From the NCBI RefSeq assembly GCF_025118155.1, contig NW_026251387.1:1457501-1521500 (forward strand): 64,000 nt of DNA, read 5' to 3'. Of this stretch, positions 23,226 to 44,498 are shown piece after piece. The notes below the pieces were generated by a model. The model was not told where the DNA came from, searched no databases, and was given only the letters and a program-made list of their open reading frames with translations. Each line of letters begins with the position of its first letter. The stretch's first letter is position 1. The stretch comes from Cokeromyces recurvatus (lineage: Eukaryota > Mucoromycota > Mucoromycetes > Mucorales > Mucoraceae). A program made the position numbers and the translations under genes.

Positions 23226-23602
23226 TGGAATATAATCTGCCGTTCAGAATAAATAGACTGAATAAGAGAAGATTTAAACCATCAGTAAAGGAGTCCGACG
23301 TGAGAAAGAAGAAGTCGAAGTTATGCATGATTTGTGAAGATAGAAAACGTCGGCATAATCAATTGACAACATGAGAAAATCAAGAAGACAACACTTATGC
23401 ATCTTTACTACAATCACGATTTTCCCTGTTGTCATATAAACTTTATTTTGTAGCAAAATTAATATAAATATCGAAAAATAATTGATTTTAAATAAAGACA
23501 ATCAATAAATATTATAAAAACTTAATTATATTCTTTGTTATTTTTTGTTTAATACCGTCTAAAGTTTTACTCTTTTGTATCTCAAGAAGTCAAGAAACGA
23601 CA
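23226..23602 (+). repeat. 5' LTR of the Ty3/gypsy element, remaining 377 bp
   Basis: Nearly identical to 28756-29132. It begins TGGAATATAATC directly after the insertion and ends GAAACGACA. It carries the U3, R and U5 regions that should drive the element. Confidence 0.88.
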
Positions 23603-23622
23603 ATTGGTAGCATCAGAGCGTT
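23603..23622 (+). promoter_or_regulatory. Likely primer-binding site of the Ty3/gypsy element
   Basis: Directly after the 5' LTR stands TTGGTAGCATCAGAGCG. TGG at this position is the usual complement of a tRNA CCA end. Which tRNA primes cannot be told from the window; neither tRNA-Phe nor tRNA-His here ends with the matching sequence. Confidence 0.55.
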
Positions 23623-23804
23623 TCGTATCTACTAGCTTATATTATTTTGTGTGCCCTTTGTGCTGTTTAATACTATTTACTTACTGATTGCCTTTGTGCT
23701 GTGCCTCCGTGCTGATTAAAATATTTGATATTTGCCTAAGTGCTGTTAACTACTATAGTTTGGAAATAATTGATAATACAAGTTTATATTGACTTTGAAC
23801 AAGA

Positions 23805-24720
23805 ATGAATACATCTACAAGTGAAGACCAAGTTATTAATAAGGAACAACAAGACTCAAAGATTGGAGAATATACGGAAATGTATGCAACTATTATGAAA
23901 GAATTTACTAAGGCTTTAAAAGAAAATTATAACTCTATGTCCAAGGTCACTACTCATAAAACTACTGAACCTCCCACTTATGATGGTGTAAGAGATGCTA
24001 TGACCATTGACTCATGGATTCGTACAATGGAAAGATATGCTGCTTTCCATGAATGGGACCATATCAGGATGAAAAATTATGCTATTACTTTACTCAGAGG
24101 AAGAGCTGATGCCTGGTATAGGACACTGGAAATTGCTAACGATGAACCTGAAGACTGGTTAACCTTTAAAAGGGAACTTATTGATTTTTTCCGACCAGAT
24201 GACGCAGTCCGTTTGGCTCGTGACAAACTAGCAGTCTATCATCAAACTGGTTCATTAATTGATTATGTAAATGGTTTTATGGATATTATAGCCGCTATTC
24301 CTGGAATAACTGATGATGAAGCATGTGACAAATTTATGAGGGGAATCTTAAACAAGACTACAAGATCCGAAGTACGACAAGTATTGCCTTGTCCTCTGAA
24401 GGAAGCTATTCGTATTGCTATTGCACATGATAGCGCTATCCATGAAGGTCAACAATACTATCGACGAGGTTATAATGGTTATCGTCAACAAGGAGCTTAT
24501 GCGGGTGAACCAATGGATCTGGATGTTATATCTTCTTATCGGGAACCTGGAAGAAATACTCGTAATAATATCATTGTCACTACTGTGGAAAAATGGGGCA
24601 CATCCGTCGTTATTGCAAAATCCGTCGTGATGATATAAAAAGGTTGGAGTTGGAAAAATATCAAAAACTCAATAGTCAAGGAAAAAGTCAGGTGTCATCA
24701 AAAAAGGATTTTCACTAAAT
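23805..24720 (+). pseudogene. Ty3/gypsy gag (capsid plus CCHC zinc knuckle), frameshifted
   Basis: The first frame, 23805-24638, encodes a retrotransposon capsid (PPTYDGVRDAMTIDSWIRTM; LRGRADAWYRTLE). The nucleocapsid zinc knuckle C-x2-C-x4-H-x4-C lies at 24575-24616 in a different frame (CHYCGKMGHIRRYC), so a frame change occurs near 24560. A single indel in the AATAATAT stretch is the simplest cause. Programmed frameshifting is less likely because gag proteins normally carry capsid and knuckle in one frame. Confidence 0.85.
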
Positions 24721-25464
24721 GTAGTTGATGACAAGGAAGTACAACTACATGAGAATTCGGAAAATCTTCCTTCTCCTCATAATAATATTGTAAATTGTCA
24801 AAATTGTGTTCATCAAAATATTAATAAAGAAATGATTGAATTTGTTCCCTACTCCTGTTCTAATGACTACAATAAGACTGAAAACAAACAATGCTCATCC
24901 TCTCCTGTTGATAACAAAAGAATAATCACAGAATTAGTACCAATTACATCATCAAATCATGATTTGGCGGCAGAACTCAAGTATCTAACTGAATTAAACA
25001 CTGTCTCTACTCAACTACCTCTATATCAGGGATACATCAATGATAAATGTCTCAATATCTTAATTGATAGTGGTGCTAGTGAAAATTATGTTTCTCCAGA
25101 AATAACTAAATGGGCACAAGATGTTTCTTTTGTTAATGATCGACAAGTTGAAATAGCAAATGGGAATATAGCAGAAATCACTCAAAAGGCTACATTGAAA
25201 CTGAACTTAAATGGCTTTGTAAAAACAGTAACAGCATACGTATTCCCTACAAAATTTGACTTGATTCTTGGGCGTTCATGGTTAAAAGAAGTAGATCCAA
25301 AACCTGACTGGACCACGGACTCCTGGATAATAAATGATCAAATAAAACTGACACCATGCAATGATCATTATAATACACAAGCAAAATTGGCCTTGGATTT
25401 GAATTATTTGATCTCACATAAGCAAGCAGAAAGATGTCTGAAAAAAGGTGCAGAAGGTATCTAA
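24721..25464 (+). pseudogene. Ty3/gypsy aspartic protease region of pol
   Basis: The frame encodes a retropepsin-like domain with the active-site motif LIDSGASENYV and the later hydrophobic-Gly element (FDLILGRSWL). It is in a different frame from the gag knuckle and ends at a stop before the reverse transcriptase, so the polyprotein cannot be made intact. Confidence 0.85.
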
Positions 25465-25639
25465 TGTACTTCAATGTGGTTGAATCAAATGATCAAAAGA
25501 ACCCATCAACGGTACAAGAAAAATATTGGGATGACCTAGTCAAAGAATTTCTTCTGTTTCCGTGAGGAATTACCTGGACTGCCACCAGAACGTGAAGTTG
25601 TACATGTTATCAACACTGGTAATGCCTCACCGGTTAGTC

Positions 25640-26740
25640 GTCCACCATTAAAATGAGTCCCGCTGAATTGGATGAACTACAACGCCAAATCAAAGAACTA
25701 CTAAATTAGGATTGATTCGTCCTAGTGCGTCTCCATGGGGTGCTCCTGTTTTGTTTGTGAAGAAAAAGAATGGTGAAATGAGAATGTGCATTGACTATAG
25801 GGCTCTAAATAAGGTCACCGTGAGAAACAATCATCCCTTACCTAGAATTGATGAGTGCTTGGATCGAGTAAAAGGTGCTTCTTATTTTACTAGTCTTGAT
25901 CTCAAATCTGGATATCACCAAGTCAGAATTAGACCCGAGGATATACCAAAGACAGCTTTCAACACCCGTTATGGACAATTTGAATTTTTAGTTTACCTTT
26001 TGGACTGACAAATGCCCACCAACATTCCAAAGTCTAATGAACAAAGTTCTGGTGATTGTCTGGATAAATTTGCATTAGTCTACCTTGATGACATATTGAT
26101 TTTTAGTAAGACGGAAGAACAACATAAACAACATGTTCGACACGTTTTGAATTTACTGAAGGAGGCCAATCTAATTGCAAATTTGAAAAATGTGAATTTG
26201 GTAAAAGAGACTTGATTTTCGTTGGATTCAAGATACTCCAGAAGGAATCTTACCTAGTCCCCAGAAGACTGAAGTCATTCGTAACTTCCCTCGTCCAACA
26301 AATGTCAGGAAGTTCGACATTCATAGGTCTTGCCCAATACTATCGAAGATTTATTCCAACTTGCTTCTATTGCTTCACCGTTGACGGACTTAACTAGAGG
26401 TACGGTGCCAAAAACGTGCAATCATATGGACTACTGAATGCAAGAAAGCTTTGATAACTAAAATTGTTACTAACATCTGCTCCGTTTTACGACTGCCTGA
26501 TATGGATAAACCATATAGAATTGAAACGATGCATCGGATTTGGATGTGGTGCTGTACTCTACAACCAGATGATCAACACCGCCATTATGGCATCCTATTG
26601 CATATGAATCAAGAAGTTTCTGCTGCTGAAAGGAAATATGCTGTACAAGAACGAGAATGTTAGGAATATTGCATGCACTCAGAAGCTGGCGATGCTTTAT
26701 TGATGGATGTAAAGGAGGGTACAAGATACTAACTGACATT
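25640..26740 (+). pseudogene. Ty3/gypsy reverse transcriptase and RNase H, broken by several frameshifts
   Basis: Reverse-transcriptase motifs are easy to follow across frames: [20 protein letters not shown], the DYRALN box, [10 protein letters not shown], and the catalytic YLDD box ([13 protein letters not shown]) near 26085. The frame changes at least near 26008 and 26210. RNase H remains follow (SAAERKYAVQERE). The density of indels shows this copy is dead. Confidence 0.85.
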
Positions 26741-27249
26741 TGCCTTTATGTTACTATCGATCTCAAGAACGACCATCTCCTCGTTAACAAGGTGGATGAA
26801 TGAACTGGAGTTGTATGCGCCTGACATCGAGTACAAGCCAGGAAGGAAAATAACGTACCAGATATCTTGTCAAGAATAGGTGGACCAAATACCTCTTGTG
26901 CTACTACTTCGTTCGAACCGGATTATTATATGCTACATGGAATATAAGAAATGCTTCAGTATCAATCCAAAATGACTGGCCTTATTTACACTAACCTGGA
27001 TAGAGTAAAATCGAATGACTTACGAAATATCTAGAAGATAAAAAGATAATTTCATCATCCGTGATAAAAGGTCTTCGTAAGGTGATCACTGATACGGAGA
27101 AAAATATAATACAAGCTGTCCCTTTCTGCCATTTGCTAACCGAGCCGATACAGTTGCCAGATATCATGAAACATATGGCACGCAGGTTTCAAAACTATGC
27201 TTAAGTGTTTACTCCTCGTTTTGGTGGCCACAATGAAGAAGGACTTGAA

Positions 27250-28904
27250 GAATGGTTAAAAACATGCCCACTTGCCAAGTAATAGTCGCCAGGAAAATAC
27301 ACCACGATTATGCATCCTTTAAAAGTACCCTCTGCTTTGATCGTTGGCATATCGATTTTATTGGCGAATTCCCACTACACTAAATAAAAACAAATGGTTA
27401 ATCGTTGCTGTGGATTACGCTACAACTGGCCAGTTGCTAGAGCAGTACCAGAGCTACTAAAGAGGCTGTCGCAGACTTTATATATGAAGAAATCATGATG
27501 AGGCATGGTTGTCCATCCGAAATCTTAACGGATCGAGGAGCTAACTTTAATTCGGCTTTGGTAAATGCATACTTAAAACGAGTGGGGACTCAACACAAAT
27601 TAACTTCAGCGTATCATCCACGTACAAATGCGAAGGTTGAACGATTCAATGGTGTTTTAAAAAGTATGTTACGTAAATATGTAAATGGTGCACTTCATCG
27701 ATGGGATGAATTTGTGAATGCCGCGCTTTGGGCCGCTCGAATTCGTGTACATTCCACAACAGGTTATAGTCCCTTCTATTTAACGTATGGTCGTGAACCA
27801 AGATTACCTGGTGACACATTAATTCCGTATATCGACAAGGACACTTTCAAAGACCCTAGGACAGTAGCTGACTATACCTCTAGAGAATTAACTAATTTGG
27901 GACAACACCGCGCAGCTGCAGAATTCAAAATGAAAGCTATGGCAGAGCAAGATAAAGAAAAATGGGATGCACACATTAGAAAAACTTCTTTTGAAATAGG
28001 TGACAAAGTCCTACTTACTCATGAAGGTCGCTTCACTCTTGAACCTACGTTCAAAGGCCCTTATATCGTGGTAGAATCATTTCCCGAGTTCGGAACTTAT
28101 CGTTTACAAACATTAGCTGGTGAGCCGTTGCAGTCGTTAGTTCATGTCGATCGCCTAAAAGCCGCTCATGGTACTACACCTATAGCCCCTTGGTACGATC
28201 CCGTTGCTGCACGTTCAGAATGGAGAACAGTAATGCATAATGCTGGTATCGCAGGCACAGTTCCAACTCTTCCTACGGATATAGAAGCTGAAACAGCAGA
28301 CATTACTATTGATACAGTTGATCCCGTTAGTTCCCCCACTGATATTCATACCACCGACGAGACGTTGCATCCATCACAAACAGAAGTATCTTCAACCAGC
28401 CCCCCCATGTATAATGACCAGAGCACCATGACTTCAACAATATCTTCTTTTGTAAATGATGACAAAATTGAACCTTGTGATGAAGATCTACATTTTGAAC
28501 AAGATATTCCTCTTCTACAAGAATCAAACGATAATTCGCTTCCCGAGCCGGACATTCACCCTGAAGACACCCCAATCACGGTTGAAACTTCCATTGAAAC
28601 CTTTGATGTTGACATTGAGGATAATCCTTGCATTGATAGTGCCGCTGACTCTCTTGCCAACAGCCCAGTTCTAAGTGCTCGAGGACGATCACCAAACAAG
28701 GAGGGGGGTAATGTCCAGTTCATTAGCAACGAAGTAGATACGCAGCCAATAGAAGTGGAATATAATCTGCCGTTCAGAATAAATAGACTGAATAAGAGAA
28801 GATTTAAACCATCAGTAAAGGAGTCCGACGTGAGAAAGAAGAAGTCGAAGTTATGCATGATTTGTGAAGATAGAAAACGTCGGCATAATCAATTGACAAC
28901 ATGA
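27250..28904 (+). pseudogene. Ty3/gypsy integrase with a C-terminal tail running into the 3' LTR
   Basis: The zinc-binding part and the first catalytic Asp (VAVDYAT, near 27410) are in broken frames. From 27495 a 469-codon open frame carries the other two catalytic residues (LTDRGANFNS and NAKVERFNG), then the family C-terminal module (GDKVLLTHEGRFTLEPTFKG; LVHVDRLKAAHG). A long acidic Ser/Thr/Pro-rich tail follows and enters the 3' LTR, ending in a basic stretch with Cys-x2-Cys (KLCMICEDRKRRHNQL). Confidence 0.88.
28697..28711 (+). promoter_or_regulatory. Polypurine tract of the Ty3/gypsy element
   Basis: AAACAAGGAGGGGGG lies immediately before the 3' LTR start and is followed by TAA and TGTCC. 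This is the expected place for the plus-strand primer. It lies inside the coding frame of the integrase tail. Confidence 0.7.
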
Positions 28905-29132
28905 GAAAATCAAGAAGACAACACTTATGCATCTTTACTACAATCACGATTTTCCCTGTTGTCATATAAACTTTATTTTGTAGCAAAATTAATATAAATA
29001 TCGAAAAATAATTGATTTTAAATAAAGACAATCAATAAATATTATAAAAACTTAATTATATTCTTTGTTATTTTTTGTTTAATACCGTCTAAAGTTTTAC
29101 TCTTTTGTATCTCAAGAAGTCAAGAAACGACA
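28712..29132 (+). repeat. 3' LTR of the Ty3/gypsy element (421 bp)
   Basis: Starts TGTCCAGTTCATT and ends GAAACGACA. It is uninterrupted and was used to define the split 5' LTR. A diverged relative is at 29895-30322. The first ~190 bp are also protein-coding as the integrase tail. Confidence 0.9.
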
Positions 29133-29803
29133 TTTTGACAAGTGGTATAAAAATATAAAATTTGCACACAAAAAATTTAGTTAACAGTCACGTGATATAC
29201 CGGACAAGTCCGGCAATTCAATTTATTTCATTTTAATTTACCCTTCTTTAATATTTCCTTTTATATAATATCATTTTTTTTATTTAAGTATCATTTTTTA
29301 ATATAATGGAATAAAATCAAGCTTTTTACTTTGCTTTAAATTTTTATCAAGTTGTTTAATTGTAATTTGATTAATTGAACTGAAACGACAATACAGAAGA
29401 TTGTCAATTAAATATAGAAACAGTAACAGAAAGAAATATCAATTCATTAACGACGACATAAAGAACAAAAGCAATATTCAACTTACATTTATACCTTTGT
29501 CTCAGTATAAAAGTAACTAGAAGAAACATTAGCTTCACAAAAAAAAAATAAAAGAAAAGGATTCTACTGTTAAGCACCACGAACATATCAGTTTGACGCA
29601 GTGTATAATAATTATAAGATGGCAATTATATAAAAGGCAGTCACGTGACCTATGACTACTTTTTCGATATGTTTTTTTTATAATTATTATAAATATTTTA
29701 TTTTTCTTAAATCTTTAATAAAGAGAGCTTTTCTTTTGATACGGTTGAGAAGAATTTTTTCAAAAAATTAAAAAATTACCAATGAGCACATTTAGGTTAA
29801 TTC
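29133..29803. other. Flanking DNA between the Ty3/gypsy element and the next TIR element
   Basis: AT-rich sequence with no supported gene. Two copies of GTCACGTGA-like words occur near 29187 and 29642. The region may be older mobile DNA but shows no clear ends. Confidence 0.4.
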
Positions 29804-30413
29804 CCCATATACCGCCGTCGGACTTGGAAAAATAGAATTTCCTTTTATTGTAATACCACTAGTAGTGATAACCTACAGCTAAAATATGTTGGATTGTCCA
29901 GTCTATTAGGAACGAAGTAGAGAACCAACAAATAGAAGTAGAGTACAATCTATCGTTTAGAATTAATAGGCAAAATAAAAGAAGATTTAAGCCGATAGTA
30001 AAGGATTCGGACGTGAGAAGAAAGAAGTCAAAATTATGCATAATTTGTGAAAATAAAAGACGTCGGCATAATTAGTTGACAACATGAGAAAATCAAGAAG
30101 ACAACACTTATGCATCTTTACTATAATCAATAATCACGATTTTCCCTGTTGTCACATAAACTTTATTGTTGTAGCAAATTTAATATAAATATCGAGAAAA
30201 TATTAATTTTGAATAAAGAAAACCATTAAATATTATAAAAAGTTAATTATATTCTTTGTCATTTTTGTTTAATACTATCTGAAATTTTACTCTTTCGTAC
30301 CTCAAGAAGTCAAGAAACGTCAAAGTCAGTATTTTTTCACTAGTAATATATTAGAGAGCCATTCCCGTAAAATAAAATTGCATTTTTCAAAGTCCGACGG
30401 CGGTATATGGGGA
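29804..30413. mobile_element. 610-bp TIR element carrying a solo LTR
   Basis: The ends are inverted repeats of about 25 bp beginning CCCCATATACCGCCGTCGGA, with one or two differences. Between them are about 90 bp of non-LTR sequence on each side and a diverged solo LTR at 29895-30322. No transposase is present, so the element is non-autonomous. Its right end sits against the cut reverse transcriptase of the DIRS fragment. I see no convincing target duplication. Confidence 0.7.
29895..30322 (+). repeat. Diverged solo LTR related to the Ty3/gypsy element
   Basis: About 428 bp starting TGTCCAGTC and ending GAAACGTCA, alignable along its whole length with the LTR at 28712-29132. It has many substitutions, small indels such as an extra TCAATAA near 30128, and a stop within the shared coding tail. 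It is older than the element next to it. No internal domain is present, so it is a solo LTR. Confidence 0.85.
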
Positions 30414-32538
30414 AGGATCCACTTTCGAGAGGCTGAGTGAACTAGTACATGGAGGAATGCATCCTGTAGGTCGATAGAAGTAAGGTAATCTTGCGGTTGG
30501 ATCATTTTGCAAACGAGTTGAATAGTTTCCATTTTGAATGGTCTTCGTGGTACGTACTGATTTAGTGGTCGTAGATTGAGTACGGGACGAAGGTCGCCGG
30601 TCTTCTTGGGTACGATGAAGAGATGGGAAAGGAAACCGGGACCATGGGTTTTCTCTATCGCTTTCTTCTCTAGTAATGATAAGATCTCGGTCTCGATTGC
30701 TGTTCGTGCTTGTGATGTTATTGCTGTTGGAAACTTGATTGAAGAAGTGGATCGGTAGTAAAGTGGATTCGAAATCCGTTTTGAATGATATCGAGAATCC
30801 ATTGGTTGTTTGTTATCTTTGTCCATGCGTCTTGATAATATTGAAGACGTCCGCCAACAGGTCGAGGTTTTAGCGTTTCTGAAAACCCCGAGAGTTGTGA
30901 GAAGAAGAGTTTGAAGCACGAGGAGCAGAAGGTGTGGTAGGTCTTGAAGTGGTACCAGATAAATTAGATTTGTCAGAAGACTTGGAGAAGTGGTCTTCGG
31001 ATTGGACAGTAGTGGATCTTGGACTACTGTTAGAACGTTTTCCCTTTTTCTTTCAGGAAGTACGACCTTTGGATTGAGCATCTTGAATGGCTTTGGAGAG
31101 CTTGGACTGTTCGAAAATGCGTGTCGTATCCAACAAAGCGTCTTCATCATCTGAGTTGGCTGCAAGTGGGGCCGTTGGCAAGCCGGCATCTCGACAAATG
31201 TTATCAATACGAAGTTGAGTGATGTGAGAGGCAACATCAGACAGTAAGCTGTGAATCGTACGAATAAAACTCGTAGAATCAGCAATAGTTGGAGTATGTC
31301 CTTGGGCAAGATTATGTGCCATAAGGTCAATCGGTCAAGTGAGTCCAGACAGGCGATATTGTACGTCGGCAAGCTGTTGATCAAACTTGCGAGTAAGTGT
31401 TCTAGTGTTGATAAGACAAAGATAACAAAAGAATAAGACAGAATAAATCTGTGAAAACTTTGTATAAAACTTTTATTATCAAAATGAAAATTAAAAATTA
31501 AAAAATGAAAAAACTGAGTTTTCAAAAGATGAGTGCAAAATGGATCCTTATTTATATCTTGTGGAGAACGGGTTACTTCGAGACAGGAACAGAGTGAAGA
31601 TATCTTGAAAGAAGAATATTTCCCATAGAATAATTAAAATTATTGTGTTAGAGCTCTAGTCTTTGCCCTGACTGAGAATTAATCTCAGTTAACTCTAATA
31701 AACATTAAATTATTGGTGCTTGATTTAGCCGGTTATTTTTCTTGAAACAAAATAATAAAATCTCGTTTTTTCATACTTGTGAATGATATAGGAAAGACAC
31801 TTTTGATATATAGATTTATATTCTAACCAGCTTCTTTATGTTATATTCATTCCTCAATGTACTACTTAAATGAATTTCATTATATTATATAGTGTATTCA
31901 ATTAGAATAGAGTTCTCATAGATAGTATATGATTATATTTATAAGTTAGTATTTTAGACAACATTAAATAATAATGCATATATATAATTAATAGGTATAA
32001 TCTATAATTCATATATCTTTATCATTAATAACTCCTTACACTATGTTTTTCTTATCATTATTTTGTAGAGTTAGTATTTATTATAACATTATTTTTTCTC
32101 ATCACAAGAATGTCTTATAAACTGAAATCAAATAATATTGTATGCATAAAGTGTATAACTAATAATTATAATATCATCCGGTTCTTCATGACTCTGATTT
32201 GTACATTATAAGATATTATGTAATACATCATTATATACACAACATCTAGCATTGACAGAACGTTGTAAAACAGGTGCACGATAACGTCGGTCCGAGTTGG
32301 AAGGACAGAGATTGAGGAATTTGCGACAGTCGGCTTCTGACAGAGGTGATCTAAAGAAATCAGCAGCTGCGTCAGAAAGAACATCATAGAATTCATCGTA
32401 AGGTTGCAGATCAACTGTAGTTGGTCGTGGAGTAAGGTAGGGATCCACATGGGCTGCTACAGGTGCTGAATGTTGCTGCTGCAATAACGTCTCCAGGTTT
32501 TGAAGGCGTCGTAATAATTCGTCGTGCTCATTGGACAT
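30414..32538 (-). pseudogene. DIRS-type retrotransposon fragment (gag and N-terminal reverse transcriptase)
   Basis: On the minus strand the gag-like frame starts at 32538 (MSNEHDELLRRLQNLE) and continues past a solo LTR insertion to a second gag part (31330-31050). Reverse transcriptase follows with DIRS-type signatures: WTKITNNQWIL, then LFIVPKKTGDLRPVLNLRPL and SIDLQDAFLHV. There are frame changes near 31050 and 30745 and an in-frame stop near 31336. The sequence stops at 30414, where the TIR element begins, so the catalytic core after DAFLHV, RNase H and tyrosine recombinase are missing. No intact product is possible. Confidence 0.82.
31406..32244. repeat. 839-bp solo LTR with perfect TCTAG target duplication
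   Basis: The insertion starts TGTTG and ends CAACA, and is flanked on both sides by TCTAG (31401-31405 and 32245-32249). Removing it with one TCTAG joins the two gag parts in frame (SVNAR/TLTRKFDQQL). The short perfect terminal inverted bases and 5-bp duplication are those of an LTR, probably Ty1/copia type because of the TGTTG...CAACA ends. No internal element remains. Confidence 0.88.
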
Positions 32539-32695: not shown

Positions 32696-32978
32696 TCGAA
32701 TATACGATATTGTCGTTTTGCACATACGATATTGCCGTTTTGCACATACGATATTGCCGTTTAGAACATACGATATTGCCGTTTTGAACGTACGATATTA
32801 CCGTTATTGCCGTTTAGAATATACGATATTGCCGTTATTACCGTTTTGCACATACGATATTGCCGTTTAGAACATACGATATTGCCGTTTTGCACATACG
32901 ATATTGCCGTTTAGAACATACGATATTGCCGTTATTGCCGTTATTGCCGTTATTGCCGTTATTGTCGTTATTACCGTT
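32696..32978. repeat. Minisatellite of ATACGATATTGCCGTTT-type units
   Basis: About ten copies of a 20-22-bp unit (ACATACGATATTGCCGTTTT and variants with TTTAGA), followed by several 9-bp TTATTGCCG units. The same two unit types occur inside both arms of the inverted repeat. Spacing is tandem and variable, so this is a minisatellite. Confidence 0.9.
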
Positions 32979-33097
32979 GGATGCTATTGCAAATAACCCC
33001 GTCGGAGTTTCAATTTTCCAATTTCCTTTTTTGGAAATTGACTACGCACACCACATTTGTATGTTATATGGCGGAAGACTAAAAAATAATAAATGTT

Positions 33098-33172
33098 AAA
33101 ATGTATAAGTGGCTAGTAATCGCGTTCTCAATCTGCTGGAGCAAGTTCGAATCCTTTTTGCCTCAATTTTTT
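33098..33172 (+). pseudogene. Degenerate tRNA-like sequence near the outer end of the left TIR element
   Basis: A near-perfect B box (AGTTCGAATCC) at 33144-33154 follows a D-loop-like AAGTGGCTAGTAATCGC at the right spacing for an A box. T-runs that could end Pol III transcription follow at 33155 and 33168. The acceptor stem does not pair, so it is not a working tRNA. An inverted copy lies at 39452-39526. Confidence 0.55.
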
Positions 33173-34441
33173 GTCCCCTTAATATATTAGTTTTTTTTCA
33201 TAAATGCCTATATAAATGTGGGGAGTTGTTTTTATTTAACAGTTTTAGGTAATTTTATTATTTTTTTTTCTTCTCTTTTTGGTTTTTTGTATTGATTGCT
33301 TATTCTGTCGGGTTCTACGGTTCTTAATTTTATTATATTTATATGACGTTTGAAATGTTATGATAATATTTGGGGAGGTGTGCCAAGTGTGTAAAAAAAG
33401 TTAGCTTTGCCTGTGTAAGCGAGAATTCTGCTTGTCTAAGTTTATTAGTGAAAGACGGTTTGTATTTTACTAGTAAAATATAATAAAATAGAGATAAAAT
33501 ATAATTAATAAAATAAAACAAAAAAAATGAGATAGATAAAGCACATTAAAACCTATTAATAAATTCTAGCAAGGTAAACATAAGTTAGAAAAGTGTATTA
33601 AACTGAATTACACAAAATAAAGGTTAATAAGTTAAGCATATTTAAAACTTTTGTAAGATGATGAGTAATAATAAGATAAGATAAAAATATAACAATTTGT
33701 ATTTGATAATATAATTATAGAACTAGAATAATTATTTAATTATTATAATTTCAAAAATCATTACAGGTATATACATATCTTTTGTAAATTTAATCTAATA
33801 TTCTTACTAATTCACGTACTTTGAGTAAATTCAATTAATGTGCCTAGTTGTATTTCCCCTGTTTGATTTTTAAAGTTATTTTTTTAAAAATGTTTAATCA
33901 AAAATATATTTTTACATGTAGGGCTTATATTAGTTGTTTTTTCCATACAAGAGTATATATTTAATATATATACAGACAGAGTTATTATTGAAGTGTGCTG
34001 TATGATCTATTACGATTATTTATTTTATTCAATTAAGTTACAAATCATACAATCATGGGAAGGCCAATAGATATTATAATTTTTATTTATATATTCAATT
34101 TAGAATAAAAAATAAAGCCAGTTTATAGCTGTTACTAGATTTTCAGAAGTTTTGAACCTTTATTATAAATCAAACAGTAATATAAAACTAAATAAACTAA
34201 ATTACTCTATAACTTATATTAAAATATATCATTATTATTCAAAAGCTTTAAGTTGTTTTAATTGGCATTTAAATGCATTATAAATGAAAAAAACAGATAG
34301 TTTAATAATAATGAATTTATATATACCTATAATGAACAATATTGAACCAAAACAACGGGTAAAAACCATTAAAATAAACATATAACATATGAAAATATAA
34401 TTTCGACGCTAAGCGCACCTCAAAAAAATAAAAAATAAAAA

Positions 34442-34512
34442 GAGTCGATCAGGATTCGAACCTGCGTCTCCACGTTGCCAGCGTGATACTTAACCACGCA
34501 GACAACCGCGCA
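34442..34512 (-). pseudogene. tRNA-like sequence near the inner end of the left TIR element
   Basis: On the minus strand the anticodon arm TCACG-CTGGCAA-CGTGG and T arm CAGG-TTCGAAT-CCTG fold well, and GGTTCGAATCC is a perfect B box. GTGGTTAAGT resembles a D loop. The 5' acceptor strand does not pair with GATCGACTC. A T5 run follows at once, as a Pol III terminator would. The loop would read GGC (Ala) if it were functional, which I doubt. An inverted copy lies at 38112-38182. Confidence 0.65.
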
Positions 34513-34619
34513 TAATTTTCTCAGATATTTTAGAGAATAAACAAGAGGAGTACCGGCTTTTGGGCAATTTCCAAAAAAGGAAATTCGAAATTTCAAACTC
34601 CGACGGGTTATTTGCAATA

Positions 34620-34848
34620 TTAACCATTACCGTTATTACCGTTATTACCGTTATTGCCGTTATTGCCGTTATTGCCGTTATTGCCGTTATTGTCGTTATT
34701 GCCGTTTAGAACATACGATATTGCCGTTTAGAACATACGATATTGCCGTTTAGAACATACGATATTGCCGTTTTGAACATACGATATTACCGTTATTACC
34801 GTTTAGAATATACGATATTGTCGTTATTGCCGTTTGCCGGTTTAAATT
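34620..34848. repeat. Minisatellite in the left arm
   Basis: Nine-base TTATTGCCG/TTATTACCG units followed by GAACATACGATATTGCCGTT units, the same two kinds as at 32696-32978. An exact inverted copy is at 37776-38004. Confidence 0.9.
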
Positions 34849-35265
34849 TGAGTAATCCAAGTGGGCACTATTTTGAAACATCATACTCTTTTCGTGCGCT
34901 ATTCTTTAATGTGTAACGAAGCACATGATTTTAGGGAGGTGGGCATTTTGCATGTTTTTTATTTGTCTTGCGAAATGTTTCATATATGTATATAGTGCTA
35001 TAGGATTGGATTATAGTGAATGGTAGAAAGCTAATTGCTTTAGCTAGTTTTCATGTCTGTCATAGACAGTTAGTTAATGTGTCTCATGTAAAGGACGAAC
35101 TTGTATGCACATAAGAGATATTTGTGTAGGAATTAAAAATAACAAGCTAATACGCCAAATTAAGGAGTAAGGGGGAACGTGGGATATTTTTTTTATTTTA
35201 GTACGATGTTGCCGATATTGCCGTTTAAAATATACGTTTTTACTCTTGCCTTTTTCAACACAATA

Positions 35266-36384
35266 ATGGAGATACCTGGTAATATTAACATAATAAAAAT
35301 TAGGAATAAGATTCTAATAACATTATCAATAGGACAATTAGCAACATTCACCCTGGCACCTGATTTTGTACCTGGGACGGATTTCATTACAAGATTTCTT
35401 TTACAGGACGAAAGAATTATGGACATTATTGTAAAGGATTTGGTTGATCAAAATGTCGACCAGTCCGCCTATGGTCTGGGTCGCTGTGGTTGGGCAAACA
35501 AATGCATTTCTGATGTCGTGTACATTCCTAGGTTACCACAACTATCTCCAGTCTTAATAGAAGTCCAATGTAAGATGGATGAGGCTTTTACAAGAAGACT
35601 AATTAATTATTCCTTGCAATTGAAACAAGAATATGGACAATTACCAAAGGTGCTCGTAATATCTATCCAAAATATTGCAACAAAAGTCAAATCAACACTT
35701 AAAATTTCTGAAAATGATTTCATGTATACAATGACTTGTGACTTTTGGGCAGAAAGTTGTCATATAATTTCAGCTGAATCAATTGAACCTCATCTAAACA
35801 ACATCCCCTTGAACAAGTTGGTTGCTTTAAGTCACTTTCTTACCCAGCAAAAACGAAACATATTATCTGTCCGTAAAAAAAATGATCCAACAATACAGCT
35901 TCTATATCAAATATCTAAAGATAAATTTGAGAACGAGTGTCATATCGAAGAAGAAAAACTAATTGTTATTAACGACCTATGTTTCAAAGCAAAAACTCAG
36001 TTTGAAAAAATTGTAAAATGTTTACAAAATGGAGAATCTACAGAAAAAGCATTAAAATACGCTGAAGATGGTCAAATTTACTTCTATCATCAAGAAAATA
36101 AATTTAAAAAAGATCGTGAAATAACGCCAATCGAAGATACACCAAACATCAGCAATTTGCTGACAGTTGATTACCACAATGATATAATAGCAGCGGATGA
36201 TGCGACGTTCATTGAAGAGTTTCAAAAAAAGAAAATAGGAAGGATGAGCTGGGAACGTTGTTTCAAGGAAGGAAGAAACAAAGAATTTTTTCTTAGCTAC
36301 AGTAATTGGAAAACTTTAAAATCATCATACCACGGCAAAAGCAAAAAACTAAGCAAAAGAAAAATAATTGAAATTGAACAATAG
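35266..36384 (+). CDS. PD-(D/E)XK nuclease-like protein in the centre of the inverted repeat
   Basis: A 372-residue frame from the ATG at 35266; an in-frame ATG at 35206 would add 20 residues but lies in minisatellite-like DNA. The core reads RCGWANKCISDVVYIP, then VLIEVQCKMDEAFTRRLINY, giving D83-x15-E99-x-Q101, the D...ExQ arrangement of PD-(D/E)XK enzymes related to Rpn/transposon-associated nucleases. A helical region and a Lys-rich tail (KSKKLSKRKIIEIEQ) follow and may bind DNA. It stops 42 bp from the convergent paralog at 36427. Fold assignment is from motif and spacing only; DNA cleavage and a role in moving or rearranging the locus are inference. Confidence 0.7.
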   Translation: MEIPGNINIIKIRNKILITLSIGQLATFTLAPDFVPGTDFITRFLLQDERIMDIIVKDLVDQNVDQSAYGLGRCGWANKCISDVVYIPRLPQLSPVLIEVQCKMDEAFTRRLINYSLQLKQEYGQLPKVLVISIQNIATKVKSTLKISENDFMYTMTCDFWAESCHIISAESIEPHLNNIPLNKLVALSHFLTQQKRNILSVRKKNDPTIQLLYQISKDKFENECHIEEEKLIVINDLCFKAKTQFEKIVKCLQNGESTEKALKYAEDGQIYFYHQENKFKKDREITPIEDTPNISNLLTVDYHNDIIAADDATFIEEFQKKKIGRMSWERCFKEGRNKEFFLSYSNWKTLKSSYHGKSKKLSKRKIIEIEQ

Positions 36385-36426
36385 TTTAATAAAATTTACT
36401 TATCTTATCGTTTTATGTTATATTTA

Positions 36427-37126
36427 TTATTTGCCCAAATTAACAAAATATTTAACAATTGGGTCATCGCTGTATAGACTGTTTTCTGTGTCGACTATAC
36501 AATAAGCTAATGCAATAAATTCTTGCATTGGATATTCATTGACAAAACCAGCAATAGATTCTTTACATAATACATAACAATTATCTGACCAAAAACTACA
36601 ATTTGCTTCCATCATAAAAGAATTGTTTTCCACCTTGAATTTAGATTTGATCTCTTCATCTGAAAATCCTCCAGTCAAAAAAATAAGTACATATGGTGAG
36701 ATTTTGTATTCCTCATGTAGTGATAAACAATACTTGATTAAATCTTCCATGAAATCAGCATTGATTGTATTTTCAGCTATAACAATGACTGGTGGCAGAT
36801 CTTTAGAGCATTGGACCTTCGGAAATAATACAACAACAGACGCTGGCTTGTTAGCCCAATGGCAGCGGCTTGCTCTATACAAAGATTTTGAAGCCTGTAA
36901 ACCTTTATTTTTTATAGTTTCTTAATAATATAATAAATGAATATGAAAGATTTTGCGTACACACCTAGCAAAGATTTTAAAATGAGATCATGAATTTTTT
37001 CTTTGTCTAATAAGTTATCGCTGAATGTCACCGATTGAGCAGAAATCCTATTTTCTACAAAGAAGATGTAAATCTGAGTGGACATGTAATTCTTTTCATC
37101 ATCTATTCACCATTTCCGTCGTCCAT
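36427..37126 (-). CDS. Paralog of the PD-(D/E)XK-like protein with the catalytic positions lost
   Basis: Three exons (37126-37111, 37054-36965, 36902-36427) give 193 residues with matching phases. It aligns along its length with the neighbour: LLDKEKIHDLILKSLL with LLQDERIMDIIVKDLV, CHWANK with CGWANK, and NCSFWSDNCYVLCKESI with TCDFWAESCHIISAESI. The predicted active-site residues are changed: D83 corresponds to V58, E99 to I77, Q101 to E79. It also lacks the long basic C-terminal region. It may be a non-catalytic partner or a decaying copy; its intact splice sites favour the former slightly. Confidence 0.65.
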
Positions 37127-38111
37127 TATGAGCTCGAAAATAATAAAAAAAGTATAGTCAACTTAGTTACTTCCCACCCCCAAATATATTTCAAGGAAAT
37201 GGTTTTGCGGCACCAACATTGGTCCAAATAATTTAAGCGGTCATTATATTCAGTTAAAGCAACAAGTTTTTCGTGTCGCGTTAGTTCTTCTATATAACTT
37301 TTTTTTTTGACTTTGCCAAATAACAAAAAAACATAAATACTGTATGCTTTTTATATTTACTCAGAAAGCCCTGACATGGTTGCCGAACCTACCTCAAAAG
37401 TAAGCCTTGTTAAGCATGTTTCCATACAACAAAAAAAGCGCCCACATACCCCCTTACTCCTTAATTTGGCGTATTAGCTTGTTATTTTTAATTCCTACAC
37501 AAATATCTCTTATGTGCATACAAGTTCGTCCTTTACATGAGACACATTAACTAACTGTCTATGACAGACATGAAAACTAGCTAAAGCAATTAGCTTTCTA
37601 CCATTCACTATAATCCAATCCTATAGCACTATATACATATATGAAACATTTCGCAAGACAAATAAAAAACATGCAAAATGCCCACCTCCCTAAAATCATG
37701 TGCTTCGTTACACATTAAAGAATAGCGCACGAAAAGAGTATGATGTTTCAAAATAGTGCCCACTTGGATTACTCAAATTTAAACCGGCAAACGGCAATAA
37801 CGACAATATCGTATATTCTAAACGGTAATAACGGTAATATCGTATGTTCAAAACGGCAATATCGTATGTTCTAAACGGCAATATCGTATGTTCTAAACGG
37901 CAATATCGTATGTTCTAAACGGCAATAACGACAATAACGGCAATAACGGCAATAACGGCAATAACGGCAATAACGGTAATAACGGTAATAACGGTAATGG
38001 TTAATATTGCAAATAACCCGTCGGAGTTTGAAATTTCGAATTTCCTTTTTTGGAAATTGCCCAAAAGCCGGTACTCCTCTTGTTTATTCTCTAAAATATC
38101 TGAGAAAATTA

Positions 38112-38182
38112 TGCGCGGTTGTCTGCGTGGTTAAGTATCACGCTGGCAACGTGGAGACGCAGGTTCGAATCCTGATCGACTC
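38112..38182 (+). pseudogene. tRNA-like sequence, right-arm inner copy
   Basis: Inverted copy of 34442-34512 with a perfect B box and a following T5 run. It points away from the central genes, toward the outer end of the right arm. Confidence 0.65.
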
Positions 38183-39451
38183 TTTTTATTTTTTATTTTT
38201 TTGAGGTGCGCTTAGCGTCGAAATTATATTTTCATATGTTATATGTTTATTTTAATGGTTTTTACCCGTTGTTTTGGTTCAATATTGTTCATTATAGGTA
38301 TATATAAATTCATTATTATTAAACTATCTGTTTTTTTCATTTATAATGCATTTAAATGCCAATTAAAACAACTTAAAGCTTTTGAATAATAATGATATAT
38401 TTTAATATAAGTTATAGAGTAATTTAGTTTATTTAGTTTTATATTACTGTTTGATTTATAATAAAGGTTCAAAACTTCTGAAAATCTAGTAACAGCTATA
38501 AACTGGCTTTATTTTTTATTCTAAATTGAATATATAAATAAAAATTATAATATCTATTGGCCTTCCCATGATTGTATGATTTGTAACTTAATTGAATAAA
38601 ATAAATAATCGTAATAGATCATACAGCACACTTCAATAATAACTCTGTCTGTATATATATTAAATATATACTCTTGTATGGAAAAAACAACTAATATAAG
38701 CCCTACATGTAAAAATATATTTTTGATTAAACATTTTTAAAAAAATAACTTTAAAAATCAAACAGGGGAAATACAACTAGGCACATTAATTGAATTTACT
38801 CAAAGTACGTGAATTAGTAAGAATATTAGATTAAATTTACAAAAGATATGTATATACCTGTAATGATTTTTGAAATTATAATAATTAAATAATTATTCTA
38901 GTTCTATAATTATATTATCAAATACAAATTGTTATATTTTTATCTTATCTTATTATTACTCATCATCTTACAAAAGTTTTAAATATGCTTAACTTATTAA
39001 CCTTTATTTTGTGTAATTCAGTTTAATACACTTTTCTAACTTATGTTTACCTTGCTAGAATTTATTAATAGGTTTTAATGTGCTTTATCTATCTCATTTT
39101 TTTTGTTTTATTTTATTAATTATATTTTATCTCTATTTTATTATATTTTACTAGTAAAATACAAACCGTCTTTCACTAATAAACTTAGACAAGCAGAATT
39201 CTCGCTTACACAGGCAAAGCTAACTTTTTTTACACACTTGGCACACCTCCCCAAATATTATCATAACATTTCAAACGTCATATAAATATAATAAAATTAA
39301 GAACCGTAGAACCCGACAGAATAAGCAATCAATACAAAAAACCAAAAAGAGAAGAAAAAAAAATAATAAAATTACCTAAAACTGTTAAATAAAAACAACT
39401 CCCCACATTTATATAGGCATTTATGAAAAAAAACTAATATATTAAGGGGAC

Positions 39452-39526
39452 AAAAAATTGAGGCAAAAAGGATTCGAACTTGCTCCAGCAGATTGAGAAC
39501 GCGATTACTAGCCACTTATACATTTT
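39452..39526 (-). pseudogene. Degenerate tRNA-like sequence, right-arm outer copy
   Basis: Inverted copy of 33098-33172, with the B box GTTCGAATCC and no pairing acceptor stem. Confidence 0.55.
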
Positions 39527-39645
39527 AACATTTATTATTTTTTAGTCTTCCGCCATATAACATACAAATGTGGTGTGCGTAGTCAATTTCCAAAAAAGGA
39601 AATTGGAAAATTGAAACTCCGACGGGGTTATTTGCAATAGCATCC

Positions 39646-42687: not shown

Positions 42688-43190
42688 CAGTGAACGCAGC
42701 ATTAAATTGCAGGTTTCTTAAAAATCAAATTGCAGTTTTTTTGTGAAATTAAATTGCGGTAAAGCGAAAAGGATTTATGTGATTATAAGGGTTCTTTATT
42801 TCTACACTTTTCAAGTTGATCACAAGAGTGTTGTATGAAAGCTTTCACATGTTGAATAGGAACATTGTTGCATGCATCTGCAATTCTTGTCTTGAGATCT
42901 TCATCATCAGAAAATGTGCCCCTCTTGTCCTTGTTCTTTACAACACACCAAAATTGCTCAATTGGGTTAAGCTCAGGTGAATATGGGGGAAGATATATGC
43001 TTCTATAACCTCTTGAAGTGATCAATTCGTCAATATCACTATGTGTATGAATAGGCACATTGTTCATAACAATATAAAAGCCGTTCATACAAGGGGTTTT
43101 ATCCATTTCATTTAGAGTTTTTCGAATAAAAGTTAAATAATGGCCGGTTGTGGTGTCTTTTGATTTTTTGCAATCCAAATAGCAACACTC
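42688..43190 (-). pseudogene. Tc1/mariner transposase fragment (C-terminal half)
   Basis: The minus-strand frame encodes the C-terminal DDE half: GFYIVMNNVPIHTHSDIDEL, then YLPPYSPELNPIEQFW. The first position of the usual MDN motif is Asn, so the second catalytic Asp appears replaced, while the final Glu of NPIEQFW is kept. The N-terminal DNA-binding half and first Asp are missing; the sequence stops at an A-run at 43190. Beyond the stop codon a TA followed by CAGTGAACGCAGCA (42686) could be its 3' end. Confidence 0.82.
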
Positions 43191-43199
43191 AAAAAAAAA

Positions 43200-44498
43200 A
43201 AGCTATTTAATAATACAGAATGTACTGATTACTGGAATAAAAAATTGATTGAACAGCACAAAGATGGCGTAAGGACAAATGAAACAAAGCGTGGAGTTGC
43301 ATCGTACAGTAGAATGACCACTCGCGGAATGAGAAAAAAACCCAAGGCAGAAATTGTAAGTGATGAATGTCAAGTTGTACACAAAATTTTGAGAAGTGTA
43401 CATTATAGGAAATTATTGAAGCAGACCCAATAGCTACAAAGATAAAAAATCATGCTCATGCAATTTATAAAGGCAAAATATACAACAACTTGCCTGTCGA
43501 TGCCCAAACAGCAATCTGGTATATTTTGCTTTGTCATTTTAAATTAGAACTTCTACTAATACATTTGATTTAGTCTTGGATTCAATTCCACGCTCGATTT
43601 AAGTAACAACAGTGAAACATCAAACAATCAGCGACATCTGTTCAATGAAGATGAATGGGAAAAAATTAAAAATGACTACGACGCCAAAGTCAAATTCGAG
43701 GATATCCCTGAGAGCATAATGACGGAGCTGAAAGAGATTGAACATCTTGCTGAAGGCAGTCTTACAAAAGCCTATCAAGAATGTTTGATGAAGCAAGCAA
43801 AATATGCCTTTACTAAAGAAGAGACATATTTTAAAATATACGCTCATGTTACTTCTGTCATGAAACTTCACCCTGAATATTTGGAGGCCTAACCTCAACA
43901 TACAACTGAAGCAAACACTTGTATACAAATCTGGAGCCCTATTATAGACTCCATTTTCGAGCACCCAACCCTAAAAATTATGTGGGGTGATTCTGTTAAT
44001 GGCCAATCTTCGATAGCAAAGAAGGCAAATCAAGAATCAAAAAAAAAGTGCATTGGGGACAAGATCGACTTCCGCGTTTGTTGCAAAGACCGAAACAAGT
44101 TAGTTGATTTGCTAAATGGAGAAATCGCCAGAGATCAGACTAATAGCAAAAAATATTTCGATGATCATGCCAAATTGTGCAGAGAGAGTAAAATAATTTC
44201 TGATCAATTTTACTCCTCCCCACACATCAAAAATAAAGAAAAAAAGGCACTCAAAGTTCGTGGTATACAACTTTGTGGTATCGAAGGAGAAATAACAGAG
44301 ACACGTTTGGTCGAAGAGGGCCTATATACCTTTTCTGTACTAGGTTCCTTACGTCTTCCAACTTCCGAAGACCATTTATATCGTCTTAGGACGTTGATAA
44401 AACGTCTTTTTGAGATAAAAAGGGGTTGTTTGGCATTGGCCAGAACCTACAGAAAAATGAAAGAAGCGAGGAAAGATTTTGAAAAAAAACATGGCTAA
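43200..44498 (+). pseudogene. Uncharacterised protein gene of the TIR unit, 5'-truncated and with one in-frame stop
   Basis: Exons can be followed on the plus strand: 43200 to about 43356 (CTDYWNKKLIEQHKDGV), a second to about 43518 (NHAHAIYKGKIYNNLPVDAQ), and a long third from about 43574 to 44498. The third contains DEWEKIKNDYDAKVKFEDIP, then a TAA at 43890-43892 after HPEYLEA, then an uninterrupted frame with IMWGDSVNGQSSIAKKANQE and RGIQLCGIEGEITETRLVEE. The 5' end is lost at the A-run where the mariner fragment begins. The family is unknown to me. The composition is soluble, with many Lys and Glu and no membrane span. Confidence 0.55.

Follow-up and report, generated by a model that had tools for sequence, protein, structure and literature searches.

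The arms of the Drosophila element Galileo grow, according to passages of PMC3573991, by taking in neighbouring non-TIR sequence in inverted orientation. The palindrome described here, from the mucoralean mould Cokeromyces recurvatus, resembles Galileo and other foldback-type elements in its long inverted arms (2197 bp) with internal tandem repeats. It differs from them in several respects: the arms contain a whole other transposon (TE-B); a target-site duplication is lacking; the search for further copies of the unit gave none; and the enclosed genes are Rpn-like, where Galileo encloses a P-type transposase.

Composite insertions of maize Ac/Ds offer another comparison. As portions of PMC4270019 describe them, these consist of a transposon end with adjoining DNA, the other junction being joined end to end or at microhomology; they involve the termini of two Ac/Ds elements and show 8-bp target-site duplications. 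The palindrome segment likewise begins at a transposon end and carries adjoining DNA, but without the duplication. The main text of PMC4270019 nowhere uses the word 'inverted'.

The enclosed genes point to the Rpn/YhgA-like recombination-promoting nucleases (PF04754, TIGR01784), with which their family appears to share the PD-(D/E)XK core motif in register; unlike bacterial Rpn genes, those of the Mucorales family are fungal and intron-bearing, and gene 1 of the palindrome has no PF04754 match. Tc1/mariner elements and MITEs are relevant as well: five related units have TA-flanked ends, and a Tc1-type element matches the ends of one; here, unlike in Tc1/mariner, the enclosed family gene encodes no DDE transposase, and the palindrome locus lacks such ends. 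Among the open-licence PMC titles listed, 3 to 15 out of the 3 to 517 found at a time, none concerns this gene family or palindromes of this kind in Mucorales.

Architecture of the palindrome

The window, the whole stretch of 64,000 nt that was analysed, contains a 6.67-kb inverted unit around two core genes, with the following features.

32702..32978, no strand: left outer tandem array of 9/22/31-bp units (TATTGCCGTT...), outside the palindrome (TRF)
32979..35175, + strand: left arm, exact inverted match to 37449-39645 over 2197 bp
32979..34625, + strand: TE-B copy 1, a non-autonomous TIR element with termini GGATGC.../...TTAACC and TIRs at 32985-33040 and 34565-34619
34626..34835, no strand: inner tandem array of the left arm, mirrored identically at 37789-37998
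34846..35175, + strand: u, upstream of gene 1, confined to the two arms (among 40 of 116 candidates scored)
35202..35236, no strand: array relic within the core, some 30 bp before gene 1 starts, read in the sequence
35266..36384, + strand: gene 1, Rpn-like PD-(D/E)XK family, 354 aa, one intron at about 35279-35332, NCBI annotation BX663DRAFT_482270 (P0001)
36427..37090, - strand: gene 2, a paralog that has diverged from gene 1 to about 31% identity and is short at its C-terminus, 5' limit approximate
37449..39645, - strand: right arm, 2197 bp, the putative copy, judging the direction of copying from the arrays
37449..37778, - strand: u', which repeats u and here lies upstream of gene 2, exact inverted match
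37789..37998, no strand: inner tandem array of the right arm, from tandem-repeat finding
37999..39645, - strand: TE-B copy 2, whose outer terminus is the exact palindrome limit; unrelated sequence without array follows

The original prediction of an exact palindrome holds over all 2197 positions: position i of the left arm pairs with 72624-i throughout, without mismatch or gap (100% identity), and the predicted minisatellite does lie within the arms, identical on both sides. A match of this length cannot be chance. Mismatches start at 32978 outside and 35176 inside, and there is no decay gradient at either end. A repeat search recovers the same arm pair as 2215 nt at a rounded 100%, the additional 18 nt at the inner end being of lower identity. 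Between the arms lies the predicted 2273-bp core (35176-37448) with its two related, convergent genes; the core has a single match in the genome, and of 116 candidate matches to the complete arm, the 40 that were scored include only its two occurrences at this locus. The flanks of the unit end in ..ttaccgtt on the left and, reverse-complemented, ..ctaaccaa on the right, and thus show no target-site duplication; TA is absent from both outer ends. Beyond the arms, the best eight inverted flank matches listed are at most 17 nt long, none better than E=0.13. The inner junction shows a short imperfect homology (CCCAC, three positions, CCCCC), and the search for decayed homology within the core ends gave only a short CCCAC/poly-T likeness.

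The arms are compound. Three quarters of each is TE-B, a separate transposon of 1.65 kb; the tandem array and about 330 bp exclusive to the arms make up the rest. No ORF of at least 80 aa lies inside TE-B, and one ORF of 104 aa enters the right copy from the right flank. A relative on contig C48, 99% identical over 504 nt, starts at GGATGC within sequence that runs uninterrupted at about 31.5-31.7k of the window, so the position of the TE-B terminus is fixed independently; the closeness of this relative suggests that TE-B was recently active. The array lies on both sides of the left TE-B, in register across it; beyond TE-B it is present on the left only, and the right side has none. It is peculiar to this locus: a 29-nt pattern of its 22-bp unit, allowing up to 3 mismatches, matches 19 times in the genome, every time (19/19) at the palindrome. 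No counterpart of the relic was seen beside gene 2. Because the outer array is left-only and the relic lies beside gene 1, the right arm has the look of an inverted copy that stops exactly at the TE-B terminus. Of the ages offered in the original prediction, 'very new' is accordingly favoured over long-term conversion, since the array marks the left arm as native and the right arm as the copy.

A missed adapter can yield a chimaeric inverted assembly, and TE-B did trouble the assembler, since contig C48 ends inside a TE-B copy. Such a chimaera, however, would lack the unique 2273-bp core, the distinct outer flanks and an arm limit lying exactly at a transposon terminus; moreover, the C48 copy falls short of full identity (99%), and arms of intermediate identity at other loci (93-99.7%) are unexpected of an artefact, which we therefore consider very improbable. 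A telomere or subtelomere fusion came into question through the position of TE-B relatives near contig ends, and was dropped, as the assembly contains zero (TTAGGG)4. A tRNA-like stretch in TE-B scored 23.4 bits, below the gathering score of 29, and was likewise set aside.

RNA interference operates in Mucorales. Read-through of the palindrome would give a 2.2-kb stem that could feed interference against TE-B and its kin, and a perfect stem of transposon sequence does adjoin convergent genes; but hairpin RNA would be a consequence of the structure, not its origin, and a hairpin-RNA locus is the least probable of the explanations weighed here, almost negligibly so.

The core genes and their family

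The core genes are paralogs within a Mucorales-wide family that appears to be remotely related to the bacterial Rpn nucleases (PF04754). Family proteins come from Benjaminiella, Blakeslea, Rhizopus, Thamnidium, Mucor, Circinella, Gilbertella, Apophysomyces and others. Profile matches are sparse: PF04754 matches 3 of the 34 aligned members, with P0035 of Mucor mucedo (21.5 bits) just above the cut-off of 21 and P0034 (18.3 bits) and P0033 (13.9 bits) below it, and does not match gene 1; TIGR01784 matches 2 of the 34 (best E=1.6e-3). In the same permissive scan as PF04754 an unrelated model, CpeT, scored E=1.4e-3. Profile comparison of the family with E. coli RpnA/B/C/E (hhalign) gave E=5.2e-4, probability 31%, and a score of 35.6, whereas none of 13 controls, reversed or shuffled, exceeded 18.9. 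RpnA residues D63, E82 and Q84, which passages of PMC5350276 report as mutated, align with family D65, E81 and Q83, a D...ExQ motif in register. The motif and the hhalign score bear out the PD-(D/E)XK signature that had been predicted for one core gene. E81 and Q83 are invariant across the 15 sequences of one alignment (A1); across the 34 of another (A2) no column is. A PDB sequence search returned only two chance-level matches (E 0.32 and 0.45).

Gene 1 carries the full motif, D65-x15-E81-x-Q83-x9-R93-x3-Y97 (P0001 numbering, from the family alignment and motif table); in gene 2 the motif is lost, D, E and Q reading V, I and E. Among 25 distinct family copies with data (3 others gave none, and C3:328k was left out), 18 retain D, E and Q, some of them with stops, and 7 have lost at least one of these residues. 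A motif-dead copy as a trait specific to convergent pairs can be ruled out, as five of the seven lie outside the two such pairs.

Over 154 positions the two genes share 31% identity. In the tree, gene 1 groups with Thamnidium, Mucor mucedo and one JGI protein (support 0.91), and gene 2 branches immediately next to this group, not within it. Judged by these comparisons, the arm identity is much younger than the gene pair, because the arms are 100% and the genes 31% identical and because of the place of gene 2 in the tree. By the same reading of the sequence, gene 1 with its intact motif and gene 2 with its dead one now share identical upstream DNA.

The discrepancy between arms and genes also suits an older palindrome, descended from an old inverted duplication of gene and flank, with arms homogenised by gene conversion; the arms of sex-chromosome palindromes are kept identical in this way. 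Family genes stand in inverted order at C1:1.49M, C1:939k and C10, and at C1:939k the stretch of 96.9% identity breaks off within the coding sequence of two paralogs, as expected of a conversion tract. But the left-only outer array and the relic found only at gene 1 argue for one-way copying of a young block, and neither limit shows a decay gradient; we hold conversion to be unlikely, while giving it more weight than the remaining rivals.

Inverted arms at related loci

The original prediction asked whether core genes in related genomes also lie between long inverted flanks. Within C. recurvatus a minority of family genes do: at 6 of the 27 family loci examined the gene lies inside inverted arms of 77-2197 bp. 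Besides the palindrome, these are C10:245182-249788 (arms of 2192 bp with zero mismatch, 223 bp apart, and a degenerate family gene in each arm); C1:939.3-944.3k, two convergent genes whose arms, 575 and 581 bp long (96.9%), reach into the first exons of both; C62:807.2-810.3k (331 bp, 99.7%); C3:633.4k (77 bp, 93.5%); and C1:840.0k (130 bp, 96.9%). None of 26 control loci, which include 14 tiles of the window outside the palindrome, has such arms. The difference gives p=0.013, a figure for which some family loci, but none of the controls, had been given extended flanks; under equal flanks of about 1.5 kb it is 4/27 vs 0/26 (p=0.06), with controls not matched for transposon density, so that the excess under equal flanks is only suggestive. 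Among the 12 loci given longer flanks, 9 had no qualifying arms around the gene.

Some candidates were not counted. At C34:775.7-779.7k a family gene lies between inverted repeats of about 620 bp (93.5%), which by eye have an LTR-type look and no TA start. At C24 an inverted pair of 100 bp (92%) leaves the family gene outside, and another, of 157 bp, does surround it but is too low in identity (81%). Smaller inverted pairs were seen at C1:465k (52 bp, 83%) and in control L060 (58 bp, 91%, just short of the length counted).

Transposon ends and mobility

Read from alignments, TA stands at 10 of 10 ends of five related units, at C10, C1:840k, C3, C62 and C1:939k. At C10, C1:840k, C62 and C1:939k the arms themselves start at TA followed by a Tc1/mariner-like end; at C3 it is the unit, not the arms, that starts so, its left terminal element being cut to about 9 bp. 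We take these TA-flanked ends to resemble Tc1/mariner TIRs. TE-B lacks the TA ends seen at the other loci, and the palindrome locus may therefore have arisen differently from these five.

Mobility of related units bears on the suggestion that the 6.67-kb unit is itself a transposon with very long (2.2-kb) terminal repeats, the nuclease-like protein acting as its transposase. One arm-bearing family unit is present at two sites, C3:633.4-635.1k and C62:807.2-810.3k, 91-97% identical; parts of the C1:840k unit, one end included, recur at C45:44.06-44.61k; and the motif is retained in most copies, as counted above. But an element at C13:92.5-94.3k resembles the C3/C62 unit at both ends (84% identity), and its interior encodes a Tc1/IS630-like DDE protein (PF13358, E=8e-6, with 26.2 bits against a cut-off of 28.6 that it does not reach), so the mobility of C3/C62 could be explained without the nuclease. 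At the palindrome itself the missing target-site duplication, the lack of a second copy and the continuation of the array outside the left arm only all speak against a mobile unit, which we regard as quite improbable.

Origin of the palindrome

On balance, the reading we favour is that the palindrome arose recently, when one flank of a diverged pair of Rpn-like PD-(D/E)XK genes was copied in inverted orientation, an event linked to a transposon end and foldback-like in character. At first gene 1 had its upstream tandem array and u, as the sequence indicates; TE-B then inserted into the array on the left, as is seen from the array continuing in register on both sides of left TE-B; and a single inverted copy of TE-B, the inner array and u would have been placed on the opposite side of the gene pair. 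The junctions are seen in the sequence, the outer lying exactly at the TE-B terminus and the inner at the CCCAC/CCCCC homology; the direction is inferred. The likely agent would be the end of a transposon, here TE-B, at which an aborted excision or strand transfer would have been followed by copying of adjoining DNA and end joining, comparable with transposition-linked re-replication or the growth of long foldback-type TIRs. This copying mechanism is deduced solely from the end points; neither a donor nor an empty allele was seen, and the empty-site check proposed in the original prediction gave nothing at the right junction, where the first 257 nt of the right flank are covered by no other match.

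Similar copying probably acted on some other family members in this genome, where arms also reach DNA-transposon ends; because they do, the structure looks like recent transposon-linked copying and not like a finished transposon.

A bolder variant gives the nuclease a part: cleavage by an Rpn-like nuclease near gene starts would initiate inverted copying to the next transposon end, homogenised arms would grow around family genes, and the intact and motif-dead genes of both convergent pairs would receive the same upstream DNA, possibly as a nuclease and inhibitor kept in step. We think this improbable, marginally more so than a transposon with very long repeats.

Implications

The palindrome offers a clean natural case in which the copying of an arm ends exactly at a transposon terminus and the source arm is identifiable. 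Further cases in the same small genome range in identity from 93 to 100%, and the growth of foldback-like repeats could be followed there stepwise. The analysis also brings out a fungal branch of Rpn nucleases, only one of whose 34 aligned members reaches the PF04754 cut-off. If a nuclease of this family promotes recombination in fungi, as Rpn does in E. coli, the palindromes that surround its genes would provide a footprint by which this could be tested.

Scattered members of the family also match six PADLOC models, the best being CARF3--CARF, in one member (E=1.4e-6).

The palindrome and its setting

An exact palindrome had been claimed for this locus in the original prediction, and it is borne out: two 2197-bp arms match with zero mismatches around a core that holds two convergent paralogs, gene 1 (plus strand) and gene 2 (minus strand). 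The window belongs to contig C1 (2,298,495 bp) of the 28.05-Mb, 64-contig genome of Cokeromyces recurvatus, a mucoralean fungus; with one intron removed, the gene 1 protein is identical to BX663DRAFT_482270 of the annotation of that species.

Features in the window
23225-29133: Ty3/gypsy-type retrotransposon; gag domain above cut-off, integrase-like matches beneath cut-off, 300-nt ends identical
29938-30323: third copy of the retrotransposon end, more diverged
30326-32538: DIRS-like reverse-transcriptase remnant (by eye), adjoining the left array; a Pfam search of 30326-31633 gave zero matches
32702-32978: tandem array outside the left arm
32979-35175: left arm
35176-37448: core
35202-35236: array relic, inside the core and close upstream of gene 1
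37449-39645: right arm
42783-43202: fragment of a DDE_3 (Tc1/IS630-type) transposase

Anatomy and origin of the arms

Each arm is built of three parts.

Arm positions 1-1647: TE-B, a TIR element with ~56-bp inverted ends, termini GGATGC.../...TTAACC, and no ORF of its own of 80 aa or more
Following TE-B: tandem array with units of 9, 22 and 31 bp
Last ~330 bp: u, the stretch upstream of gene 1

All 19 genome pattern matches to the 22-bp array unit fall at this locus, and among the matches listed for u there are none besides the two arms. TE-B has a relative on contig C48, 99% identical across the first 504 nt, where that contig stops; this copy begins at GGATGC within sequence that looks DIRS-like by eye, the uninterrupted form of which is found at window ~31.5-31.7k. 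Within TE-B, arm ~456-1087 resembles a dispersed repeat (65-77% identity) at 36 or more further places, a lower bound, as 40 of 116 candidates were scored.

Several smaller features of TE-B may be recorded. tRNA-like stretches lie near both ends and point inward, one at 34449-34504 (minus strand; 23.4 bits against a gathering score of 29), the other, seen by eye only, at ~33105-33170. At three TE-B-related places (L040, L041 and C34:776.5-777.2k), TE-B-like ends adjoin, by eye, a 3' piece of the Ty3-like element, as if retrotransposon pieces were repeatedly framed by TE-B ends.

The two sides of the palindrome differ. On the left, the array continues outside the arm, in register across TE-B, and its relic lies at gene 1; on the right, the sequence beyond TE-B lacks the array, and gene 2 has no relic of it alongside. 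The array is thus original to the left side, where TE-B inserted into it, and the asymmetry makes the right arm most plausibly an inverted copy. Its outer end coincides exactly with the TE-B terminus. At the inner junction, left and right have CCCAC in common, then three positions (two of them differing), then CCCCC. The bases flanking the palindrome hold no target-site duplication; for TE-B itself the array phase is compatible with a duplication of 0 or 9 bp, from neither of which a superfamily follows.

The genes have a different age. In a midpoint-rooted FastTree phylogeny of the family (~190 columns), gene 2 branches just outside a group (0.91) that joins gene 1 to proteins from Thamnidium and M. 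mucedo and to one JGI protein; the gene pair is therefore older than the identity of the arms.

Recurrence at other family loci

The gene 1 family of Rpn-like PD-(D/E)XK genes has 35 matches in the C. recurvatus genome and relatives across Mucorales. Thirty loci were fetched, representing 27 distinct places (two further places were left out), and inverted arms were scored by one criterion, 60 bp and 85%, at family loci and controls. Arms enclose a family gene at 6 of the 27 places, the present locus and five others.

Other family loci within inverted arms
C10: arms 2192 bp, zero mismatches, separated by 223 bp; each arm carries a degenerate gene, array at the centre
C1:939k: arms 575 and 581 bp, 96.9%; convergent pair with a nested Tc1-type element (DDE_3 domain) between
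C62: arms 331 bp, 99.7%
C3: arms 77 bp, 93.5%
C1:840k: arms 130 bp, 96.9%

TA and a Tc1/mariner-like end are found at all 10 outer ends of these five units. The C3 and C62 units are one element at two sites (91-97% identity), and their ends match both ends of an element on C13 with a Tc1-type DDE protein (84%); the left terminal element of C3 is cut to ~9 bp, so that its inverted match stops short of the right outer end. A seventh locus, C34, has LTR-like inverted repeats and was excluded from the count.

Family genes often sit in transposon-rich DNA, for which the 26 controls are unmatched; these comprise 14 tiles of the window, six kinase loci and six repeat loci. Against them, 4 of 27 family loci were positive with ~1.5-kb flanks versus none of the controls (p=0.06), and 6 of 27 when some family loci had longer flanks (p=0.013). 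Longer flanks at 12 family loci gave nine negatives and three positives, namely C62, C1:939k and C34, the last outside the count; 11 viewed with 1.5-kb flanks only gave none.

Tandem arrays of differing sequence also lie near several family genes, as here: at C4:282.7k and C48:8k (~0.1-0.3 kb upstream), at C10, and at C6:360.5k (3.3 kb away).

The likeliest mechanism and its parallels

Directly observed are the identity of the arms, their limits, the one-sided array, the difference in age between arms and genes, and the recurrence at other family loci. The likeliest mechanism, an inferred one, is that a transposon end initiates copying of the adjoining DNA into inverted position; the initiating end would be TE-B at the present locus and Tc1-type ends elsewhere, and the inverted copy would be joined at short homology. 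Known parallels to such copying are offered by Galileo, whose TIRs are described as growing by recruitment of neighbouring sequence (PMC3573991), and by maize, for which composite insertions following re-replication are described (PMC4270019). A finished foldback transposon would carry a target-site duplication and recur in the genome; the present locus has no such duplication and, among the candidates scored, no second copy, and is therefore not classed as one.

The nuclease-like family

Profile matches are sparse among the 34 aligned members: three match PF04754 (21.5, 18.3 and 13.9 bits; cut-off 21), the best, P0035 of Mucor mucedo, barely above the cut-off; two match TIGR01784 (best E=1.6e-3) and three DUF2887 (best E=1.7e-3). 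Because these permissive scans also took unrelated models to E=1.4e-3 (CpeT), the best PF04754 match is the only one clear of noise. Sequence search of solved structures gave no match better than chance. Alignment by hhalign with E. coli K-12 RpnA, B, C and E gave E=4-5e-4, probability 31-35% and a score of 35.6, against at most 18.9 for 13 reversed or shuffled controls; it pairs RpnA D63, E82 and Q84 with family D65, E81 and Q83. Change of the proposed catalytic residues of RpnA is reported to lower or abolish recombination, toxicity and damage signals (PMC5350276).

Of the 25 distinct family copies with data, 18 retain D, E and Q together. Gene 2 has V, I and E in their place, in the C1:939k pair the second gene has T, N and Q, and five other copies have lost a residue (C3:633k, C1:758k, C2:24.7k, C3:246k and C10). 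Bacterial Rpn proteins have a further described role, as anti-phage toxins whose antitoxins are intragenic (PMC10327210); by analogy, and as speculation, the motif-dead partner here might play an antitoxin-like role.

One aligned member matches the CARF3--CARF model of PADLOC (E=1.4e-6). In Benjaminiella poitrasii, the P0019 gene model joins a family gene to what looks, by eye, like a Tc1-type helix-turn-helix region, and this region has an 86% match adjoining a family gene at C24.
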